A stretch of 64,000 nucleotides of DNA, from positions 1,054,001 through 1,118,000 of the forward strand of contig NZ_JACHWH010000001.1 of the NCBI RefSeq assembly GCF_014191255.1, in the 5' to 3' direction. The notes beneath the pieces are model-generated. The model was given only the letters and a program-made list of their open reading frames with translations, was not told the origin of the DNA and ran no database searches. Positions 11,739 through 25,765 of this stretch are shown piece by piece (positions within the stretch are counted from its first letter, which is position 1; the number at the start of each line of letters is the position of its first letter). The translations under genes and the position numbers were made by a program. The stretch comes from Amycolatopsis bartoniae (lineage in GTDB: Bacteria > Actinomycetota > Actinomycetes > Mycobacteriales > Pseudonocardiaceae).

Positions 11739-12512
11739 ATGTCCGTAGCCGTGAGGGTGATCCCCTGTCTGGACGTCGACGCCGGCCGAGTGGTGAAGGG
11801 CGTCAACTTCGCCGACCTGCGCGACGCGGGCGACCCGGTGGAGCTGGCCCGCCTGTACGACGCCGAGGGCGCGGACGAGCTGACGTTCCTCGACGTCACC
11901 GCCTCCTCCGGCAACCGGGAGACCACCTTCGACGTGGTGCGCCGCACGGCCGAGCAGGTGTTCATCCCGCTCACCGTCGGCGGTGGCGTGCGCACCACCG
12001 AGGACGTGGACCGGCTGCTGCGGGCGGGCGCGGACAAGGTGAGCATCAACACGGCGGCGATCGCGCGGCCGGAGTTCCTGCGCGAGGCGTCGCACCGGTA
12101 CGGGGCGCAGTGCATCGTGCTGTCGGTCGACGCCCGGCGCGTGCCCGAGGGCGGCGAGCCGACGCCGTCCGGTTTCGAGGTCACCACGCACGGCGGCCGC
12201 AAGGGCACCGGGATCGACGCGGTCGAGTGGGCCGCGCGCGGCGAGGAGCTGGGGGTCGGCGAGATCCTGCTGAACTCGATGGACGCCGACGGCACCAAGA
12301 ACGGCTTCGACCTGGAGCTGATCGAGCTGACGCGCAAGGTCGTGCGGGTGCCGGTGATCGCGAGCGGCGGCGCCGGTGCGGTGGAGCACTTCCTGCCCGC
12401 GGTGCGCGCGGGGGCCGACGCCGTGCTGGCCGCCAGCGTGTTCCACTTCGGACAGTTGAAGATCGGCGACGTCAAGGAGTCCCTGCGCGGGGGCGGGGTC
12501 GAGGTCCGGTGA
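11739..12512 (+). CDS. hisF: Imidazole glycerol phosphate synthase, cyclase subunit
   Basis: HisF joins PRFAR with ammonia delivered by HisH to form imidazole glycerol phosphate and AICAR. The 257-residue half-barrel-repeat protein has the catalytic Asp in [18 protein letters not shown], the second catalytic Asp in VLSVDARR and [12 protein letters not shown]. The ATG follows TAAGCT by 6 nt, so the transcript is probably leaderless. It overlaps the next gene by 4 nt. Its partner hisH is at 13987-14616 on the opposite strand. Confidence 0.98.
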
Positions 12513-12874
12513 AGCGCATCGAAGTCCGGGTGACGATGGCACTGATGGTCGGGCTGGGGCTGGCGTACACGCTGCTCGGGGTGATCATCGTGACCACGTC
12601 CGAGGCGTCGCCGCGCACGCTGCTGCTGCCGATCGCGAGCGTGGTCCTCGGCGGGCTCGTCACGGCCGGGCTGGCGCTGCGGATGCCGTCCGCGCGGTTC
12701 TTCGGGTTCGCCGTCGCCGCGCTGCTCGCCCTGCTGCACGCGTTCCTGCTGCTGGCCAGCGCGGTGCTGTTGTTCAAGCTGTTCTCCGGCCTGCTCGCGG
12801 CCGGTTACGTCTACGCGTGGGTGCTGCTCAACTCCGGGCCCATGCGCCGCTACCTGCTCGGAGACGCCGCGTGA
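12509..12874 (+). CDS. Small membrane protein between hisF and hisI
   Basis: 121 residues with four hydrophobic segments ([77 protein letters not shown]). The GTG overlaps the hisF stop and the gene's own stop overlaps the hisI GTG, both by 4 nt, so it is translationally locked into the operon. No function is recognised. Confidence 0.75.
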
Positions 12875-13227
12875 GCCTCGACCCCGCACTGGCCGGCCGC
12901 CTCAAGCGGAACGCCGACGGCCTGATCTGCGCCGTGGTGGTGGACCACGCGACGTCGGACGTGCTGATGGTGGCGTGGATGAACGACGAAGCGCTGGAGC
13001 GCACGCTCACCACCCGCCGCGGCACGTACTGGTCCCGCAGCCGCCAGGAGCTGTGGGTGAAGGGCGAGACGTCGGGGCACGTGCAGCACGTGCGCGAGGT
13101 GCGCCTGGACTGCGACGCGGACACCGTGCTCGTGCGGGTGGACCAGGTCGGCCCGGCCTGCCACACGAACACGCGCACCTGCTTCGACACCGACGAGCGA
13201 CTGCTACTGGCCGACGACGGGGCCTGA
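12871..13227 (+). CDS. hisI: Phosphoribosyl-AMP cyclohydrolase
   Basis: Opens the adenine ring of phosphoribosyl-AMP, the third step of His synthesis. The 118-residue monofunctional enzyme has the zinc/magnesium motifs [14 protein letters not shown] and CHTNTRTCF, and [10 protein letters not shown] in the N-terminal half. No HisE domain is attached; hisE and hisG are not in the window. The GTG start at 12871 (coupled to the preceding gene) is preferred over the longer frame because family members start near SLDPALAG. Confidence 0.96.
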
Positions 13228-13232
13228 CGCGC

Positions 13233-13964
13233 TCAGCGGACGGCGGCCAGTGCCTCCGGCAACGTGAAAGCCCCCGCGTAGAGGGCCTTGCCCACGATCG
13301 AACCTTCCACGCCGTCGCCCGCGAGGGCCGCCAGCGCGCGCAGATCGTCCAAACTGGACACTCCGCCCGAGGCGATCACCGGGGCGTCGGTGCGGGCCGC
13401 GACCTCGCGGAGCAGCTCCACGTTCGGGCCCTTGAGCGTGCCGTCCTTGCTCACGTCCGTCACCACGTACCGGGCGGCGCCGTCGCGGTCGAGGCGCTCC
13501 AGCACCTCCCACAGGTCGCCGCCGTCCTGCGTCCAGCCGCGCGCCGCCAGCCGGTGCCCCGCCTCGGTGATGCGCACGTCCAGCCCGATGGCGACCCGGT
13601 CGCCGTACGTGGCGACGGCCTTCGCGGTCCACTCCGGGTCCTCCAGCGCCGCCGTGCCCAGGTTCACCCGGCGGGCGCCGGTGGCCAGCGCGGCCTCCAG
13701 CGACGCGTCGTCGCGGATGCCGCCCGACAGCTCGACCTGCACGTCCAGCCGGCCGACCACGCGGGCCAGCAGCTCCCGGTTCGAGCCCTTGCCGAACGCC
13801 GCGTCGAGGTCGACCAGGTGGATCCACTCCGCCCCGTCGCGCTGCCACGCCAGGGCCGCCTCCAGCGGGTCCCCGTAGGAGGTCTCGGTACCGGCTTCGC
13901 CCTGGACGAGCCGGACGGCCTGGCCGTCGGCCACGTCCACGGCGGGAAGGAGCGTGAAAGTCAC
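13233..13964 (-). CDS. priA: Phosphoribosyl isomerase A (HisA, probably also TrpF activity)
   Basis: 243-residue TIM barrel of the HisA family: [29 protein letters not shown] and [13 protein letters not shown] give both catalytic Asp residues and both phosphate-binding loops. HisA isomerises ProFAR to PRFAR. In actinobacteria lacking trpF, PriA also isomerises phosphoribosyl anthranilate. The trp genes of this window lack trpF, so the dual role is likely, although the rest of the genome is unseen. It is convergent with hisI, 5 nt apart, and 22 nt downstream of hisH. Confidence 0.94.
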
Positions 13965-13986
13965 GCGGCCACGATAGCTGAGCTGC

Positions 13987-14616
13987 TCAAAGGCTCCGCA
14001 GCCAGTTCTCCAGCAGGTGCGCGCCCGCGTCGCCGGACTTCTCCGGGTGGAACTGCGTCGCCCACAGCGGCCCGTTCTCCGCGGCCGCCACGAAGTCCTC
14101 GCCGTGGTGCGCCCACGTCACCTTCGGCTGCTGCCCCGGCAGGCCCGAGTCGAGCTCCCACCGGCGCGCGGCGTAGGAGTGCACGAAGTAGAACCGCGTG
14201 CCGGCGTCCATTCCGGCGAACAGCTGCGAATCGGCGGGCGGGCGGACCGTGTTCCACCCCATGTGCGGCACGACGTCGGCGTGCAGGCGCTCCACCGTGC
14301 CCGGCCACTCGCCGGTGCCCTCGGACTCCACGCCGTGCTCGACCCCGCGCTCGAACAGGATCTGCATCCCGACGCAGATGCCCAGCACCGGGCGGCCGCC
14401 GGCCAGCCGCGTGCCGATGATCTTCTCACCGCCGACGGCGAGCAACCCCCGCATGCACGCGGCGAACGCGCCCACCCCGGGCACCACCAGCCCGTCGGCC
14501 TCCAGCGCCGCATGCGGGTCGGCGGTCACCTCGACCTCGGCGCCGACGCGGCGCACGGCACGTTCGGCGGAGCGGAGGTTCCCGGAACCGTAATCCAGAA
14601 TCACGACGCGAGTCAC
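13987..14616 (-). CDS. hisH: Imidazole glycerol phosphate synthase, glutaminase subunit
   Basis: 209-residue class I glutamine amidotransferase supplying ammonia to HisF. Nucleophile Cys81 is in LGICVGMQ and the His/Glu dyad in [16 protein letters not shown] at the N-terminus is HisH-specific. The GTG is 6 nt after TAGACT, consistent with a leaderless transcript for hisH-priA. In the M. tuberculosis arrangement hisH follows hisB; here hisB is 7.3 kb away, separated by the soxR/MMPL region. Confidence 0.97.
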
Positions 14617-14724
14617 CCCGCCAGTCTAGGGTGGCCCCGCGGACGCTTCCAGCACGGGAAAGTCCGGTTTGAACTCCCGGACCGCGGGGAATGAGTTCGG
14701 CGGGGGCAGGCAAAGGGAGTGACT

Positions 14725-15081
14725 ATGCGGTCACAACACAGTTCCAGGGCACGCCCCGGCCGGAAGATCCTTGCCCTGACCGGACTTCTCGCCGACGAGC
14801 TGCAGCACCTCGACGCACGCGAGCTGGACGCGGCCGAGGTCCGCACGCTGATGCACGACCTCACCGGCACCGCCTCCGCCCTCACCCGGATCCTCGACGG
14901 GCTGCGCGACTGCCCGCTGCTCACCCCGCCGGGGCAGGAGCCCGGCGTGCACCACACGGTGTGCAGCGAGCTGGAGCAGGCGGCAGCCGCGGCCGAGGAC
15001 CTGCGGGTGACGGCGGAGTCGTTGTGCCGGCTGCTACCGGCGGAGGCGGTGGTGCCGGAGCGCAGAACGCTTCAGCCGTAG
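14725..15081 (+). CDS. Hypothetical protein, 118 aa
   Basis: The ATG start is preceded by AAAGGGAG at 5-nt spacing. The protein is basic at the N-terminus (MRSQHSSRARPGRK) and then largely helical (LLADELQHLDARELDAAEV), with two Cys at DCP and VCSE. No family is recognised. Its last 10 nt overlap the end of the convergent transketolase gene. Confidence 0.6.
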   Translation: MRSQHSSRARPGRKILALTGLLADELQHLDARELDAAEVRTLMHDLTGTASALTRILDGLRDCPLLTPPGQEPGVHHTVCSELEQAAAAAEDLRVTAESLCRLLPAEAVVPERRTLQP

Positions 15082-15959
15082 AACCCGCGGATCGCGGACG
15101 TGAGGCCCGGCACGTCGAGCCCGTGCGCGGCGTCGTGGTCGGCCGGGGTGCCGTAGAGACGGACCTCCGCGTCGCGGCGGACGCCGAGGCTGAGCAGCCG
15201 GTGCGGCACGTCGGCGAGGGCTTCCGCGACGTGGTGCGCGGAGGTGCCCGCGAGGTACGGCTCGACGAGGACGACGTCGGCACGGTCGTTGGTCGCAGCG
15301 CGCAGGCTCTTGGCGTCGAAGGGCCGGACGGTGTGCGCGTAGAGCACTGTGACGTCGAGCCCTTCGGTGGCCGCGAGCACGTTGTCGAGCAGGGGGCCGA
15401 CGGCCAGCACCACTCCGTCGTGTCCCTGCCGGACGGTCTGGAACCCGGCGCCGAGGTGGGGCTCGGCGTTCGCCTGCGAGCTGAGCCGGAGGTAGACGCT
15501 GCCGTCGCCGGGCAGGGATTCGAGCAGCAGCCGGCGGGCTTCCTCCGGGTGGCCGGGCACGTGCACGGTCCAGCCGGGGATGGTGTCCAGGAGCGCGACG
15601 TCCCCCGGTGACTGGTGCGTGCGGCCGTCGGACGACCTGTCGTAGGACGCGCCCGCGGAGACCAGGACCGCGCCGACACCCTGGTGGGTGAGATCGAGTT
15701 TCACCTGTTCGTAGGGCCGCTCGACGAGGAACGGCGGGAAGCTGTGCGCGACAGGGCGCAGGCCCGCGAGCGCGAGGCCGCCGGTGACGCCGACGAGCGC
15801 CTGTTCGCGGATGCCGACGTTGAGCACGCGGTCCGGGTGGCGCCGCCGGGTGCCGGCCAGCTGGGCGGCGGAGATCTCGGCGAGCACGAGCACCAGCCGG
15901 GGGTCGGCGTCCAGCATTTCGTCTATTGTGGACAGGAAGGTTTCGCGCATGTCCAGCAC
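15072..15959 (-). CDS. Transketolase C-terminal subunit (split transketolase)
   Basis: 295 residues covering the pyrimidine-binding and C-terminal domains of a transketolase: VLNVGIREQALVGVTGGLALAG holds the catalytic Glu that activates ThDP, followed by GVGAVLVSAGASYDRSSDGRTHQSPGDVALL. The partner subunit is encoded just upstream, 3 nt away. Two-gene transketolases occur in many bacteria and archaea and transfer two-carbon units between sugar phosphates, but some act on other substrates. The operon's promoter carries a SoxR-like box, suggesting redox-stress induction. A downstream ATG at 15950 is an alternative start. Confidence 0.87.
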   Translation of the reverse strand: MLDMRETFLSTIDEMLDADPRLVLVLAEISAAQLAGTRRRHPDRVLNVGIREQALVGVTGGLALAGLRPVAHSFPPFLVERPYEQVKLDLTHQGVGAVLVSAGASYDRSSDGRTHQSPGDVALLDTIPGWTVHVPGHPEEARRLLLESLPGDGSVYLRLSSQANAEPHLGAGFQTVRQGHDGVVLAVGPLLDNVLAATEGLDVTVLYAHTVRPFDAKSLRAATNDRADVVLVEPYLAGTSAHHVAEALADVPHRLLSLGVRRDAEVRLYGTPADHDAAHGLDVPGLTSAIRGFYG

Positions 15960-15962
15960 TGG

Positions 15963-16643
15963 TCAGGATTCCTTCGGTTCGACGACGGCGACCACGCACA
16001 GGGGTGCGTGCGGGTGCGGGGTGGTGAAGGCGTCGTACAGGGCGTCGTGGTCGCGGCCGTCGACGGTGCGGGTGACCCAGTTCTCGACGGCGAAGCGCCG
16101 GTCGATGCCGCCGGGCCAGCCGTAGGTGGCGGACTGGTTGTCGATCACGACGGCGGTCAGCCGGTCGAGGGAGAGGCGGCCGGCGAGCGCGACGGCCTCC
16201 CAGTTGGAACCCTCGTCGAGTTCGGCGTCGCCGACGAGCACGACGACCCGGGAGTCGATGTGCTGCGCCCGCAGGCCGAGCGCGGTGCCGGTGGCCAGCG
16301 CGAGGCCGTGGCCGAGGGAGCCGCTGGAGATCTCGACGCCGGGTACGCGGGTGCGGTCGGGGTGCAGGCCGAGGCGGGAGCCTGCCGACGCCCAGTCGTC
16401 GAGCTCGGCGGGGTCCAGGAAGCCCTTGGCGGCCAGCACGGCGTAGTAGGCCATGGGGCCGTGGCCCTTGGACAGCAGGAAGCGGTCGCGCCGCGGGTCG
16501 TGCGCGTTCGCGGGCGAGATGTTCAGGACGCGGTCGTACAGCACCCACAGAACGTCCACAGTGGACTGCGCGGCGGGCTCGTGCTTCTCGTCGCCGGTCA
16601 GGCGGGCGATCAGGGCGGACAGGTCCGGCGTGGCGGTGGTCAT
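15963..16643 (-). CDS. Transketolase N-terminal (ThDP-binding) subunit
   Basis: 226 residues carrying the ThDP diphosphate-binding half: RFLLSKGHGPMAYYAVLAAKG, ISSGSLGHGLALATG and VVLVGDAELDEGSNWEAVALAG, the last being the GDx(n)N cofactor motif. The catalytic Glu is on the downstream-encoded subunit. The ATG at 16643 is chosen because it follows, by 6 nt, the -10 CACCGT of a 19-nt-spacer promoter; an in-frame GTG at 16658 would fall inside that promoter. It is divergent from soxR. Confidence 0.88.
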   Translation of the reverse strand: MTTATPDLSALIARLTGDEKHEPAAQSTVDVLWVLYDRVLNISPANAHDPRRDRFLLSKGHGPMAYYAVLAAKGFLDPAELDDWASAGSRLGLHPDRTRVPGVEISSGSLGHGLALATGTALGLRAQHIDSRVVVLVGDAELDEGSNWEAVALAGRLSLDRLTAVVIDNQSATYGWPGGIDRRFAVENWVTRTVDGRDHDALYDAFTTPHPHAPLCVVAVVEPKES

Positions 16644-16649
16644 GCCGTC

Positions 16650-16680
16650 ACGGTGCAACCTCGACTTAGGTTGAAGTCAA
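16650..16680 (-). promoter_or_regulatory. SoxR-type promoter of the transketolase operon
   Basis: On the minus strand: TTGACT (16680-16675), a 19-nt spacer, CACCGT (16655-16650), 6 nt, ATG. The 18-bp sequence CTTCAACCTAAGTCGAGG (16659-16676) matches the enteric SoxR box CCTCAAGTTAACTTGAGG at 13 of 18 positions and sits exactly as in the soxS promoter. A 19-nt spacer is the hallmark of promoters activated by MerR-family proteins. Confidence 0.8.
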
Positions 16681-16689
16681 GGTTAGGCT
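16661..16689 (+). promoter_or_regulatory. Promoter of soxR overlapping the SoxR box
   Basis: TCGACT (16661-16666), a 17-nt spacer, TAGGCT (16684-16689), 6 nt, then the GTG of soxR. Normal spacing suggests constitutive expression, possibly dampened by SoxR bound to the shared box. Confidence 0.6.
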
Positions 16690-16695
16690 GGTCGT

Positions 16696-17157
16696 GTGAC
16701 CAAGCTTGGCGACCACCTCAGCATCGGGCAGGTCGCGGAACGCAGTGGCGTGCCGCACACCGCGCTGCGGTTCTACGAGGACCGCGGGCTGATCTCCTCG
16801 GAGCGGTCCGCGGGCAACCAGCGCCGCTACCCGAGGACCGTGCTGCGGCGGATCGCGTTCATCCGGGCGGCGCAGCGGGTGGGGCTGAGTCTCGAAGAGA
16901 TCAGCAGTGCGCTGGCGACGCTGCCGAAGGACCACGCGCCGACGAAGGCGGACTGGGCCCGGCTGTCGCGGAACTGGCAGGAGGAGCTCGACGCGCGGAT
17001 CGACGCGCTGCAGCGCCTGCGCGACCGGCTGACGGGTTGCGTGGGGTGCGGTTGTCTCTCCCTTCGGGTGTGCGGCCTGTACAACCAGGACGACCAGATG
17101 TCCCACTTCGGCCCCGGCGCGAGGCTGCTGAAACCCGCCCTGGAGGGCGGGGTCTAG
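16696..17157 (+). CDS. soxR: Redox-sensing transcriptional activator SoxR
   Basis: 153-residue MerR-family protein. N-terminal winged helix SIGQVAERSGVPHTALRFYEDRG, a long dimerisation helix, then the [2Fe-2S] ligands Cys115, Cys118, Cys120 and Cys126 in the pattern CxxCxC(x5)C, followed by LYN as in known SoxR proteins. Oxidation of the cluster by redox-cycling compounds activates transcription. In actinobacteria SoxR usually controls a small set of oxidoreductase and exporter genes. The only SoxR-type box seen here is in the divergent transketolase promoter, so that operon is the likely target. Confidence 0.95.
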   Translation: MTKLGDHLSIGQVAERSGVPHTALRFYEDRGLISSERSAGNQRRYPRTVLRRIAFIRAAQRVGLSLEEISSALATLPKDHAPTKADWARLSRNWQEELDARIDALQRLRDRLTGCVGCGCLSLRVCGLYNQDDQMSHFGPGARLLKPALEGGV

Positions 17158-17710: not shown

Positions 17711-18283
17711 TCACGTCGCCCGGCGAGGCCGCCCCAGCAACCGCCGGCCCACTTCCACCAGGTGGGCACGCAGGGTGTCGTCAGGAAGAGCCGCGAACTG
17801 CGGCGCCCCGCCGGTCAGCGCGATGCCCACGATGGCCGCGTGCGCCGCGATCGCGCGGGACTCGTCCGCCTCCGGGCCCGCGAACAGCTCCAGCATCCGC
17901 CCCCCGTAGATGTCCGACCACGAGTCCGCCAGCGCGCGCGTCACGCCGGGATCCCGTGCGAACAACGCCACCAGCGCCCGGTGTCGCACCACGACGTCGA
18001 CGAAACCCGTCAGCAGGTGGTCGATCTGCGCGCCCCGCCGGCGCAGCCGCGAAGCCTCCTCGACGACCAGCTCCAGCTCGCGCAGCCCCGGTTCGGCCAC
18101 GGCGCCCGCGATCTCGTCCTTCGTCTTGAAGTGGTAGTACACCGCCGCCTTCGTGACCCCCAGCGCGTCCGCGATCATCTGCAGCGACGTGCCCTCCACG
18201 CCGTGCTCGGTGAACAGCTGCAACGCGGTGGCGAGCAGGCGCGTCCTCGTGTCTTCCCGGCCGCTCGCCGTCGCGGCTGTCAT
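17711..18283 (-). CDS. TetR-family repressor of the adjacent MMPL exporter (inferred)
   Basis: 190 residues. The helix-turn-helix is TRLLATALQLFTEHGVEGTSL, then ADALGVTKAAVYYHFKTKDEI; the C-terminus is a typical ligand-binding domain. The ATG at 18283 has a GGGAGGG ribosome-binding site at about 5 nt, so the longer upstream frame is rejected. It is divergent from the MMPL exporter, and three matching palindromes lie between them, the usual layout of a TetR-controlled efflux gene. Confidence 0.9.
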   Translation of the reverse strand: MTAATASGREDTRTRLLATALQLFTEHGVEGTSLQMIADALGVTKAAVYYHFKTKDEIAGAVAEPGLRELELVVEEASRLRRRGAQIDHLLTGFVDVVVRHRALVALFARDPGVTRALADSWSDIYGGRMLELFAGPEADESRAIAAHAAIVGIALTGGAPQFAALPDDTLRAHLVEVGRRLLGRPRRAT

Positions 18284-18450: not shown

Positions 18451-20583
18451 GTGGCCACTGCGCTCTACCGGCTGGCTCGGTTCTCGTTCCGCCGCCGCAG
18501 GCTCGTCACCGCGGTCTGGGCCGCGGTGCTGATCGTGCTCGGCCTGGGGGCGCTGACCCTGTCCGGCCAGCTCACGAACTCCGTGACCATCCCCGGCACC
18601 GAGTCGCAGCGGGCGATCGACCACCTCAAGGAGCGCTTCCCGCAGGCATCCGTCGGCGGCGCCACCGCCCGCGTGGCGATCGAGGCACCGGCCGGTCAGA
18701 AGCTCACCGATCCGGTGAACCAGCCGACCGTCGAACAGCTCGTCAACGCGCTCAAGACCGCACCGAAAGCGCGCACGGTCAGCGACCCGTTCCAGACGAA
18801 GATGGTCTCGCCGGACGGCCGCGTCGCGCTCGTGCAGATCAGCTACGGCGTCCAGGCGTCCGAGCTGACCGAGAGCGATCGCGAGGCCGTCCAGGCGCCC
18901 GCCGAACCGGCCCGGCACGCCGGGCTGACCGTCGAGTTCGGCGGCGACGCGATCGAGGGCATGCCCGAAACCGGTGCCACGGAAGGACTCGGCGTCGTGG
19001 TCGCCGCGATCGTGCTGACCGTGACATTCGGCTCACTGCTCGCCGCGGGGCTGCCGCTGCTCACCGCGTTGCTCGGCGTCGGCGTCGGCATGGCGGGCCT
19101 CTTCACCGTCTCCGGCTTCACCGAGCTGAACTCCAACACCCCGATCCTCGCGCTGATGCTCGGCCTCGCCGTCGGAATCGACTACGCGCTGTTCATCGTC
19201 TCCCGCTACCGCCACGAACTGGGCCAGGGCCACGATCCCGAACAGGCCGCGGCCCGCAGCGTCGGCACCGCCGGTTCGGCCGTCGTGTTCGCCGGGCTCA
19301 CCGTGATCATCGCGCTGGTCGGGCTCACCGTCGTCGGCATCCCGTTCCTCGGCCAGATGGGGGTCGCGGCCGCCGCGACCGTCGCCGTCGCCGTGCTGAT
19401 CGCGTTGACGCTGCTGCCCGCCATCCTCGGTTTCGCCGGCCGCAAGGTGCTCGGCAGACGACGCGAGCAGACCCGCACCACGAACGGCGAACGCTGGGCC
19501 CGCTTCGTCGCGAGGCACCGCGTGCCCGTGCTGGTCATCGCCGTCCTCGGCCTGCTCGTCGTCGCGATCCCGGCGCTGAGCATGCAGCTCGGCCTGCCGA
19601 ACGACGCGACCGCCGCGCCGGATTCGACGCAGCGCAAGGCGTACGACATCGTCTCGTCGGGCTTCGGTCCCGGCGTGAACGGCCCGCTCATCGTGGTCGT
19701 CTCCGACGCGACTCCGCAGAACACCACGGAGGCCGCGGACCGCATCTCGCGGCTCGGCGACGTCGCCGCCGTGACGCAGCCGCAGTTCAACGCGCAGCAC
19801 GACACCGCGATGTTCACCGTCATCCCGAAGAGCGGCCCGAGCAGCGAGCAGACCGAGAAGCTCGTCGGCGACATCCGGAACCAGGCCGGGCACACCGAAC
19901 TCGCCGTCACCGGGCAGACCGCGCTGCAGATCGACGTGTCCGAGAAGCTCGCCGGCGCGATGCTGCCCTACCTCGCGCTCATCGTCGGGCTCGCGTTCCT
20001 GTTGCTGATGCTGGTGTTCCGCTCGCTCGTGGTGCCGCTCAAGGCCACGCTCGGCTTCCTCGGCTCGGTGGTCGCCACGTTCGGCGCCGTCGTCGCGGTG
20101 TTCCAGTGGGGCTGGCTCGACGACCTGCTCGGGGTGAAGTCGACCGCGCCGATCATGAGCATGCTGCCGATCCTGCTGATCGGCGTGTTGTTCGGTCTCG
20201 CCATGGACTACCAGGTGTTCCTCGTGACGCGGATGCGCGAGGAGTACGTGCACGGCACCGAGGCGCAGGAGGCCACGATCACCGGCTTCCGGCACGGTTC
20301 GCGCGTCGTCGTGGCGGCCGCGCTGATCATGATCAGCGTGTTCGCCGGGTTCGTGCTCGCGGACACCACGCTGATCCAGTCCATCGGTTTCGCGCTCGCG
20401 TTCGGCGTGCTGGTGGACGCGTTCGTGGTGCGGATGACGCTCGTGCCCGCGGTGATGTCGCTGCTGGGCGCGAAGGCGTGGTGGCTGCCGCGCTGGCTCG
20501 ACCGCGTGCTGCCGAACGTCGACGTGGAGGGCGAAAGCCTCACCAAGCAGCTCGACGAGCGCGAGCCCGCGAACGTCGGGTAA
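18451..20583 (+). CDS. MMPL/RND-family exporter
   Basis: 710-residue transporter of the MMPL (mycobacterial membrane protein large-like) type with about 12 membrane helices in two six-helix halves. Each half has one helix, a periplasmic domain of about 130-140 residues, then five helices. GLAVGIDYALFIVSRYRHEL and GLAMDYQVFLVTRMREEY are the paired signature segments carrying proton-relay Asp residues. These proteins export lipids or drugs. TetR control suggests an inducible drug or lipid exporter; the cargo is unknown. GTG start with a GAGGAAAGG ribosome-binding site. Confidence 0.93.
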   Translation: MATALYRLARFSFRRRRLVTAVWAAVLIVLGLGALTLSGQLTNSVTIPGTESQRAIDHLKERFPQASVGGATARVAIEAPAGQKLTDPVNQPTVEQLVNALKTAPKARTVSDPFQTKMVSPDGRVALVQISYGVQASELTESDREAVQAPAEPARHAGLTVEFGGDAIEGMPETGATEGLGVVVAAIVLTVTFGSLLAAGLPLLTALLGVGVGMAGLFTVSGFTELNSNTPILALMLGLAVGIDYALFIVSRYRHELGQGHDPEQAAARSVGTAGSAVVFAGLTVIIALVGLTVVGIPFLGQMGVAAAATVAVAVLIALTLLPAILGFAGRKVLGRRREQTRTTNGERWARFVARHRVPVLVIAVLGLLVVAIPALSMQLGLPNDATAAPDSTQRKAYDIVSSGFGPGVNGPLIVVVSDATPQNTTEAADRISRLGDVAAVTQPQFNAQHDTAMFTVIPKSGPSSEQTEKLVGDIRNQAGHTELAVTGQTALQIDVSEKLAGAMLPYLALIVGLAFLLLMLVFRSLVVPLKATLGFLGSVVATFGAVVAVFQWGWLDDLLGVKSTAPIMSMLPILLIGVLFGLAMDYQVFLVTRMREEYVHGTEAQEATITGFRHGSRVVVAAALIMISVFAGFVLADTTLIQSIGFALAFGVLVDAFVVRMTLVPAVMSLLGAKAWWLPRWLDRVLPNVDVEGESLTKQLDEREPANVG

Positions 20584-20784: not shown

Positions 20785-21708
20785 ATGCTGTTCGCACGAC
20801 GCCTGATCCCGGTCCTGCTGGCCCTCGGGCTGGCCGCTCTCCCCGTCACCACGGCGCAGGCCGCGCCCGCCACCGGCGAGCCGCCCGCGTCGTTCTGGGG
20901 CGACACGAGCACGATCCCCGCCGCCCAGAACGTCCTGACGGTCAAGGTCGAGAACCACACGAACGGCCAGTACCCCGACAGCCAGGTGTACTGGAGCTTC
21001 AACGGCCAGACGGCCTCGATCGCGCAGCAGCCCTACATCGACATGCCCGCCAACTCCGCCGGGCGCATGTACTTCTATCTCGGCTCGCCGAACGGGCAGT
21101 ACTACGACTTCATCGAGTTCACCGTCGGCGCGGCGCAGATCAACGTCAACACCACCCGCGTCGACCGGTTCGGCCTCAAGCTCGCGCTGCTCGTGCACGG
21201 GCACGACGGTTCCGAGCGCGTGGTCGGCGAGAACTACGCGACATTCTCCGAGAGCAGGGACGCGACGTTCCAGCGGTTCCAGAACTCGGTGCCCACGGAG
21301 TTCAAGCAGCTGGCGACCGTCAACGCGCCCTACGGCATCCCGTCGCCGGGCAACGCCCCCGCGTTCCAGCCCGGTGGGCAGTACGCGAACTACTTCTCCA
21401 GCTACGCCGCATCCGTCGGCGACAGCAACGACTCGACCGCGCAGATCTTCGGCTGCGGCGGCACCCTGTCGGCCAACCCGCAGCTGTGCGCGGGGATCAA
21501 CCGGCACGTCGCGCAGCTGCCGACGGCGGACCAGTCCAACCCGGCGAACTTCTACCAGACCGCGCCGGCGAACTACTACTCGCAGTTCTGGCACCAGAAC
21601 GCCATCGACGGGAAGGCGTACGGCTTCCCGTACGACGACTACGCCGAGCAGTCCTCGTTCATCTCGGTGAACAACCCGCAGTACATGCTCGTCGCAGTCG
21701 GCTGGTGA
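20785..21708 (+). CDS. Secreted GH64-type beta-1,3-glucanase
   Basis: 307 residues with a Sec signal peptide (hydrophobic LIPVLLALGLAALPV, cleavage likely after AQA). The body matches glycoside hydrolase family 64/thaumatin-like glucanases: SSYAASVGDS, FYQTAPANYYSQFWHQNAI, KAYGFPYDDYAEQSS and a C-terminal YMLVAVGW. Family members cut beta-1,3-glucan into pentasaccharides and attack fungal walls. No carbohydrate-binding module is attached. Monocistronic, with its own promoter and a shared hairpin terminator. Confidence 0.88.
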   Translation: MLFARRLIPVLLALGLAALPVTTAQAAPATGEPPASFWGDTSTIPAAQNVLTVKVENHTNGQYPDSQVYWSFNGQTASIAQQPYIDMPANSAGRMYFYLGSPNGQYYDFIEFTVGAAQINVNTTRVDRFGLKLALLVHGHDGSERVVGENYATFSESRDATFQRFQNSVPTEFKQLATVNAPYGIPSPGNAPAFQPGGQYANYFSSYAASVGDSNDSTAQIFGCGGTLSANPQLCAGINRHVAQLPTADQSNPANFYQTAPANYYSQFWHQNAIDGKAYGFPYDDYAEQSSFISVNNPQYMLVAVGW

Positions 21709-21751: not shown

Positions 21752-21906
21752 TCAGCCGACGAACCAGGCGATCGCGCCGCCGAGCGCGAGCAGCGTGGCG
21801 ACGAGCAGGAGCCCGGCCAGCACCTTCGAGTTCTTCCACGTGCTGTACACGCCGCCCGCGAGGAAACCGGCCAGCGCCAGCAACAGGATTCCGACGATCT
21901 CCTTGC

Positions 21907-21910
<4 letters not shown>
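21752..21910 (-). CDS. Small membrane protein downstream of hisB (52 aa)
   Basis: The GTG overlaps the hisB stop by 4 nt. The 52 residues begin [19 protein letters not shown] and contain two hydrophobic helices separated by YSTWKNSK. It is part of the hisDCB operon by coupling. Function unknown; it is too short for most gene callers. Confidence 0.65.
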
Positions 21911-24919
<3,009 letters not shown>

Positions 24920-24967
24920 GGGTCTAGGGTACGGAGGGGGAAGCCGTCCACGACCAGGGAGGTAGCC

Positions 24968-25765
24968 GTGCTCCGGATCGCGCTGAGTCAGGTCACGTCC
25001 GGCGAGGACCCGGCCGGGAACCTCGAACTGATCCGCGGCGAAGTGGCCAGGGCCGCCGCCGAAGGGGCCCGGGTCGTGGTGTTCCCCGAAGCCGCCATGG
25101 TGCGCTTCGGCGTCAAGCTCGGCCCCCTCGCCGAACCGCTGGACGGGGCGTGGGCGAAGTCGGTGTCGGCGGTCGCGGACGAGCACGGCGTGCTGGTGGT
25201 CGCGGGCATGTTCACGCCGTCGGATGACGGGCGGGTGCGCAACACGCTGCTGGTCACCGGGCTGGGCAGGCACCTCGGCTACACGAAGATCCACCTCTAC
25301 GACGCGTTCGGCTTCCGCGAGTCCGACACCGTCGCGCCGGGTTCGGACGTCGTCACCACCACGGTCGACGACGTCACGCTCGGCCTCGCCACCTGCTACG
25401 ACGTCCGGTTCCCCGAGCTGTTCCGCCGCCTGGCCGACGAGGGTGCCGAGGCGATCGTGGTGCCGACGTCGTGGGGCAAGGGCGAGGGCAAGCGCGAGCA
25501 GTGGGACGTGCTGGTGCGCGCCCGCGCGCTCGACTCCGGCTGCTGGGTGCTGGGCTGCGGCCAGGCCGACCCGGCCGAAACGGGCACCGAGGTGAACCCC
25601 AAGGCCCCGACGGGCATCGGCTACTCGACGGTCGCCGACGGCTTCGGGCACGTCCGCGCGCAGGCCGGGCCCGGCCCCGAGCTGCTCGTCGTCGACGTCG
25701 ACCCCGAGGTCACCCGGAAAGCACGGGCTGCGACGGGTGCACTCGCGAACCGGCGCTTGAGCTAG
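24968..25765 (+). CDS. Carbon-nitrogen hydrolase (nitrilase superfamily)
   Basis: 265 residues with the full catalytic triad: Glu41 (VVFPEAAM), Lys107 ([10 protein letters not shown]) and Cys143 ([11 protein letters not shown]). The YDAFGFRES and VRFPELF segments point to the Nit1/Nit2-like omega-amidase or deaminated-glutathione amidase branch rather than true nitrilases. GTG start with a GGGAGG ribosome-binding site. The 3' end overlaps the convergent transporter gene by 56 nt. Confidence 0.9.

Follow-up and report, generated by a model that had tools for sequence, protein, structure and literature searches.

Gene arrangement and promoters at the locus

In the window, the 64,000-nt stretch of Amycolatopsis bartoniae DNA that was analysed, soxR is divergent from a two-gene split transketolase, and a SoxR box between them overlaps the soxR promoter too (Table 1). 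The genes for the two halves of the transketolase are separated by a gap of 3 nt. In PDB searches, the N half was best matched by the N-terminal component of a split-chain transketolase; DXS was the best match of the C half, with the split-chain C subunit (6yaj) also matched. This split-chain enzyme of Carboxydothermus hydrogenoformans (6yak/6yaj) likewise consists of two chains, but it is distant in sequence, and its N half has 309 aa versus 226 aa in the window.

Table 1. Positions of the features of the soxR-transketolase locus in the window
Feature	Position	Strand	Remarks
SoxR box CCTCGACTTAGGTTGAAG	16659..16676	no strand	Between divergent genes; kept in 133/139 similar loci
-35 TTGACT, predicted split-transketolase promoter	16675..16680	-	Columns themselves used in finding sites
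-10 CACCGT, 19-nt spacing from -35	16650..16655	-	Spacing kept in 127/129 distinct promoters
Split transketolase N-terminal half, 226 aa, ThDP-binding domain	15963..16643	-	PF00456; best PDB match 6yak
Split transketolase C-terminal half, 295 aa, pyrimidine-binding and C-terminal domains	15072..15959	-	PF02779, PF02780
soxR, [2Fe-2S] MerR-family regulator, C-x2-C-x-C-x5-C	16696..17157	+	TIGR01950; 2zhg
soxR promoter -35-like TCGACT, within SoxR box	16661..16666	+	17 nt before the soxR -10
soxR promoter -10 TAGGCT, 17-nt spacer, then 6 nt and GTG	16684..16689	+	Read by eye

The first-pass annotation had described a minus-strand transketolase promoter of the form TTGACT-N19-CACCGT-N6-ATG, and all of its elements were located as claimed, with the ATG (16643-16641) 6 nt past the -10 hexamer. 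The box is centred in the 19-nt spacer, which is the architecture of SoxR-activated promoters, and the previously reported agreement with the enteric SoxR site was confirmed when counted by eye against the E. coli soxS box (13 of 18 positions alike). The placement was also correctly described as soxS-like: the E. coli promoter, TTTACC-N19-TATACT, has the same register and spacer length. Unlike the present case, the E. coli target is a regulator and not an enzyme, and the distance from its -10 to the start codon is long. On the plus strand, soxR has a promoter with a spacer of normal length, as had been annotated (TCGACT-N17-TAGGCT-N6-GTG).

The regulator itself belongs to SoxR, scoring 208.6 bits with TIGR01950 (cut-off, 116.9), and the four [2Fe-2S] cysteines attributed to it earlier are found in CVGCGCLSLRVC, with the spacing C-x2-C-x-C-x5-C. 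The SoxR structure 2zhg was its best PDB match (E 4e-43), and its second-ranking relative within the genome reached 69 bits versus 337. The four cysteines were kept in all 63 SoxR proteins adjoining a box, that of the window included.

The 7.76-Mb genome was scanned with a degenerate box pattern written from this very site, and the reversed pattern served as the control. The only exact occurrence was the site itself. At 2 mismatches one further place was found, and there was no excess over the control (three hits each, two of those of the pattern being both strands of the site). The half-site pattern CYTCRA-N6-TYGARG occurred at this site and once inside rpoB (control, 0). As further SoxR sites, both candidates were rejected: the half-site match lies inside rpoB, and no matching promoter was seen by eye at the 2-mismatch place (L010). 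The split transketolase was the sole gene in the genome found with a close SoxR box. Evidence against chance from this genome alone is modest, and the comparison among relatives constitutes the strong test.

Histidine-biosynthesis genes apparently flank the locus on both sides (11739-14616 and 21752-25651; ORFs read by eye), of which hisH (13987-14616) is the sole one confirmed, by TIGR01855. In relatives, hisH adjoins the soxR-transketolase pair at L013, L014, L027, and L038 (tblastn) and at L133 (ORF). Between hisH and the transketolase there is a 120-aa ORF (14719-15081, plus strand) that matched neither Pfam nor NCBIfam at E 0.001. A TetR-type regulator gene (17711-18283, minus strand) divergent from an MMPL-family transporter gene (18451-20583, plus strand) is likely an efflux pair adjoining soxR, and the product of 20785-21708 (plus strand) matches GH64, a beta-1,3-glucanase family.

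Conservation and distribution of the SoxR-box promoter

A total of 139 loci were compared, namely the 30 best family loci (297 genomes, window included), 29 further class loci (394 genomes), and 80 named loci, the last being the best 80 of 472 confirmed N-half matches in one contig scan; a few near-duplicates are among them. The loci come mainly from Actinomycetes, with some Chloroflexota bins and one Myxococcaceae bin. The box was called at a motif score of at least 14 of 18, or of at least 12 with soxR adjacent; two Micromonospora loci (L147 and L148) count as box loci by the second rule only, which was set after they had been viewed. The box was present in 30 of 30 family loci, 28 of 29 class loci, and 75 of 80 named loci (133 of 139 overall). 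Four of the six box-free loci (L050, L128, L137, L139, L140, and L149) are not accounted for by a rif-type setting. Real upstream regions reached a score of at least 14 in 131 of the 133 box loci, equal to 131 of 139 overall, and shuffled versions (20 for each of the 133 box-bearing loci) did so in 12 of 2660.

The -10 and the distance to the ATG took no part in locating the sites. In 127 of 129 distinct promoters, all but those of L131 and L142, the distance from the -35 to NANNNT was exactly 19 nt, and any other spacing between 14 and 24 nt occurred in at most 15 of 129. Poor conservation of the box and its spacing, which had been named beforehand as grounds for abandoning the regulatory proposal, was not what we observed. 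The predicted SoxR-box promoter of the split transketolase is strongly supported by conservation, and the comparison bears out the start codon distance and the two-gene unit as well.

An in-frame ATG was positioned 6-7 nt past the -10 in 130 of 133 loci, so that in Actinomycetes the message for the transketolase probably has no leader. All three exceptions are Chloroflexota bins (L144, 30 nt; L132, 39 nt; L141, 42 nt), and the distances in L132 and L144 point to an mRNA with a leader there. On the soxR side, the -10 (TANNNT) was seen by eye at a roughly equal position in nearly all of L011-L040, L039 excepted; spacing on this side was variable outside the family.

Each of the 30 best family loci, among them that of the window, has a divergent soxR. 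In 80 of the 83 genomes common to both sets of matches listed, soxR and the transketolase were divergent within 1 kb (exceptions: G011, G077, and G209); these 83 represent the best-scoring rows among the matches listed, and the pairing rate across all 297 genomes may be lower. Across the whole comparison, soxR lay beside the box in 63 of 133 box loci (30 family, 7 class, and 26 named). At the other 70, no soxR was found adjoining the box within a flank of 1.5 or 3 kb; thus, the box before the transketolase persists without a neighbouring soxR.

The enzyme was matched at E 1e-30 in 78 of the 80 genomes of genus g16 (taken as Amycolatopsis). In the genus to which G643 belongs, 82 of 150 genomes had a match at E 1e-60; this genus was taken as Streptomyces, since the G643 copy shares 96% identity with the one in S. 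tibetensis. Among the 394 class genomes, 53 had a match at E 1e-50 or better. Four Chloroflexota bins (L132, L135, L144, and L150) have soxR, the box, and both halves. Together with L139 and L141 they form a separate supported clade (98), which argues against contamination. All parts were also present in the bin labelled Myxococcaceae (L131).

Clustering of neighbouring ORFs at the 80 named loci identified no widespread partner beyond the two halves. This clustering was weak. An antisense frame made up its largest family (54 loci), and apart from the halves no family was more widespread than a small downstream gene present in 9 loci. The clustering also missed soxR, which is adjacent in 26 of the 80, and therefore leaves room for partners of the transketolase.

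The split enzyme and its relationship to Rif15

The ThDP catalytic residues are those of canonical transketolases, positions H26, H66, H100, D155, N185, E411, and H473 of E. coli TktA being kept in every aligned row (144 N and 138 C rows; shorter rows were left out). The residues that we take to be the substrate ligands (TktA H261, S385, H461, D469, and R520) follow another pattern. The H261 segment was missing from 144 of 144 N rows, H461 was replaced in 138 of 138 C rows and S385 in 136 of 138, and D469 and R520 were mostly replaced, the alignment near 469 and 520 being uncertain. The window is the sole box row keeping D469; R520 is not kept in it. Scored alone, each half reached at most 128.9 bits with the NCBIfam transketolase equivalog (cut-off, 488), and the C half alone reached 73.1 bits with the DXS equivalog (cut-off, 465.95). 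The genome also encodes a full-length transketolase with all those ligand residues. The absence or exchange of several substrate ligands, together with the normal transketolase encoded at another place in the genome, disfavours a pentose-phosphate role, and the split enzyme is probably not a pentose-phosphate transketolase.

As shown in PMC6002545, Rif15a and Rif15b use fructose 6-phosphate, xylulose 5-phosphate, and further ketoses as donors of a C2 keto unit for rifamycin S; the acceptor is this quinone and not the hydroquinone SV, and the product is rifamycin L. The enzyme of the window belongs to the same two-subunit sequence family. Its joined halves were 60.3-63.6% identical to 11 rif-type copies, which were identified by genomic context. 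These copies resemble the window in subunit order, in their catalytic residues, and in the loss of the H261 segment and of H461. Unlike the window, they have no SoxR box, and those whose surroundings were read adjoin tailoring genes, P450 and methyltransferase genes among them.

A quick tree of 82 rows was computed with SH-aLRT support only and a distant, long-branched outgroup (L163, a duplicate of L149, was left out). All 11 rif-type rows formed one clade (SH-aLRT 100) nested inside the box family, with the soxR-adjacent loci L039 (84) and L142 (96) as neighbours, and the window fell outside this clade. Of 164 near-invariant columns defined from 60 box rows, 149 were kept in all 11 rif-type rows and 77 in three or more of the four outgroup rows. 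Judging by this nesting and the shared invariant columns, Rif15 seems to have been captured from within a SoxR-regulated family.

The presumed substrate site differed between the groups. At the S385 position, Trp was found in 11 of 11 rif-type rows, unlike nearly all box rows (Asp in 74, Ala in 38, Gly in 11, and others in 4 of 127). Trp also occupied the D469 position in 10 of 11 rif-type rows, and box rows had mostly Gly or Ala there, with Trp in 2. At the R520 position, Arg was found in 10 of 11 rif-type rows, and Gln (84) was more frequent than Arg (15) among the 127 box rows. Given these differences, the box-family enzyme may use another acceptor, another donor, or both, and its substrate may be a different SoxR inducer or a sugar.

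Genus g16 has 14 second copies, 63-66% identical to the window, in 13 genomes; none of the 13 examined had a box (that of G846 was left out). In G290 the second copy adjoins genes for a dehydroquinate dehydratase, a methyltransferase, a P450, a thioesterase-like protein, a PapA5-type acyltransferase, and an FAD monooxygenase, a gene order that we took to be that of rif tailoring. On reading by eye, the 19 kb to each side of this rif-type copy showed no polyketide synthase. In G290 (loci L159 and L161), the rif-type tailoring genes lie near genes read by eye as rpoB and rpoC. An arylamine N-acetyltransferase family gene, of the RifF type, was found approximately 27-38 kb from the second copy in 8 distinct genomes (15 entries searched, the genome of L149 and G881 being one and the same). 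None was found near the second copy in G833 or G834 or near the second extra copy of G879, and in G290, G865, G846, and G141 the matches were on other contigs.

The published rif15A primer encodes, in our translation, RFYLSK, and this peptide was present in 10 of 11 rif-type rows and absent from the window. The source of locus L149 is A. vancoresmycina. A kanglemycin-type cluster is described in this species in PMC6175910, which puts rif15A/15B at the downstream edge of clusters of this type. PMC4551226 places the Rif15 homologues sle09700/sle09710 outside the chaxamycin cluster. Seven box-free copies were assigned to no rif-type setting (L128, L137, L139, L140, L172, L173, and L174). Three of them, L137, L172, and L174, formed a small supported clade of split transketolases that have no box and no assigned rif-type setting.

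Proposed function and competing explanations

What SoxR does in non-enteric bacteria is debated; the targets known for it there are redox enzymes and exporters. As the best explanation of the whole, we consider it reasonably likely that SoxR responds here to redox-active quinones by inducing a ThDP enzyme, which then caps them. To judge from the conservation of the box, SoxR would occupy it within the spacer of the split-transketolase promoter, which is overlong at 19 nt. A redox-active compound, for example a quinone, would oxidise the [2Fe-2S] cluster, as expected of the SoxR family; the oxidised protein would then remodel the DNA, as related families suggest, and RNA polymerase could use the -35 and -10. 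The resulting mRNA, probably leaderless, would code for both subunits. With a sugar phosphate as donor, the two-subunit ThDP enzyme would, if its homology to Rif15 extends to the reaction, place a C2 ketol unit on a quinone carbonyl, as Rif15 does on rifamycin S. The capped quinone would be re-aromatised to a hydroquinone glycolyl ester, and its redox cycling would be halted until export or breakdown.

That a widespread SoxR-driven ThDP enzyme disarms quinones by a C2 cap, and that Rif15 arose from it by cluster capture and loss of the SoxR box, is a more tentative proposal, to which we would give slightly less than an even chance. No description of C2 ketol capping as quinone detoxification as such was found in the literature searched, and no paper joining SoxR, rifamycin, and transketolase was found among the matches listed. 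If true, SoxR would gain a concrete chemical task through a deeply conserved C2-transfer enzyme as its direct target, soil bacteria would have a new and possibly widespread route for inactivating quinone drugs, and the origin of an unusual step of rifamycin synthesis would be accounted for.

The first-pass annotation had offered two functions for the enzyme, of which a special ThDP enzyme gained ground from the relationship to Rif15 and a link to pentose-phosphate flux lost it. The latter would take the form of an auxiliary transketolase, induced to rebalance sugar phosphates and NADPH under redox stress. Pfam transketolase domains, the retained catalytic ThDP residues, and the use of phosphoketose donors by Rif15 too are in its favour, as is the link of E. 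coli SoxRS to zwf. We nevertheless judge it improbable: the H261 segment and H461 are lost in all rows, the three other ligands are mostly replaced, the scores of each half alone are far under the NCBIfam transketolase cut-offs, and a full-length transketolase with the ligand residues is encoded in the genome.

C2 transfer might instead be directed to another SoxR-activating or stress electrophile (a phenazine, dicarbonyl, or aldehyde), or the enzyme might make a small natural product, quinones not being the main acceptor. We consider this unlikely, although less so than the auxiliary transketolase. The presumed substrate-site residues are unlike those of rif-type rows, the enzyme is present in 78 of 80 genomes of genus g16 and a second rif-like copy in only 13, and members exist in Chloroflexota; on the other hand, the invariant columns are shared almost completely with rif-type copies, and quinones are among the SoxR inducers. 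Benzoquinone and plumbagin activate the SoxR of S. coelicolor (PMC5288332). Finally, the box might only autoregulate soxR, the transketolase being a bystander. The box does overlap the soxR promoter in the window, and a possible box is reported upstream of approximately 13 percent of Streptomyces soxR genes in PMC4146615. However, at the 70 loci without an adjoining soxR, the box, the 19-nt spacing, the -10, and the ATG distance are kept before the transketolase, and it is the soxR-side spacing that varies outside the family, so that we regard this reading as very improbable.

The S. coelicolor SoxR regulon (PMC4146615) is one of the closest known systems: boxes lie directly before single genes, there is no soxS, and some targets resemble actinorhodin tailoring enzymes, a precedent for targets akin to the tailoring of a quinone antibiotic. 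It differs in that the targets listed there are redox enzymes, a monooxygenase, an epimerase/dehydratase, and a transporter, with no transketolase beyond a footnote to Table 4, where a conserved SoxR site is noted for the putative transketolase SAV_1623 of S. avermitilis. The box before a transketolase was correctly recognised in the earlier annotation, but the view of the gene as a previously unrecorded SoxR target was not quite right. SAV_1623 was named in no other paper found, and a transketolase may have been listed as a SoxR target earlier. The promoters compared here, with their 19-nt spacer (127 of 129) and predicted leaderless start, form a natural series for studies of MerR-type activation.
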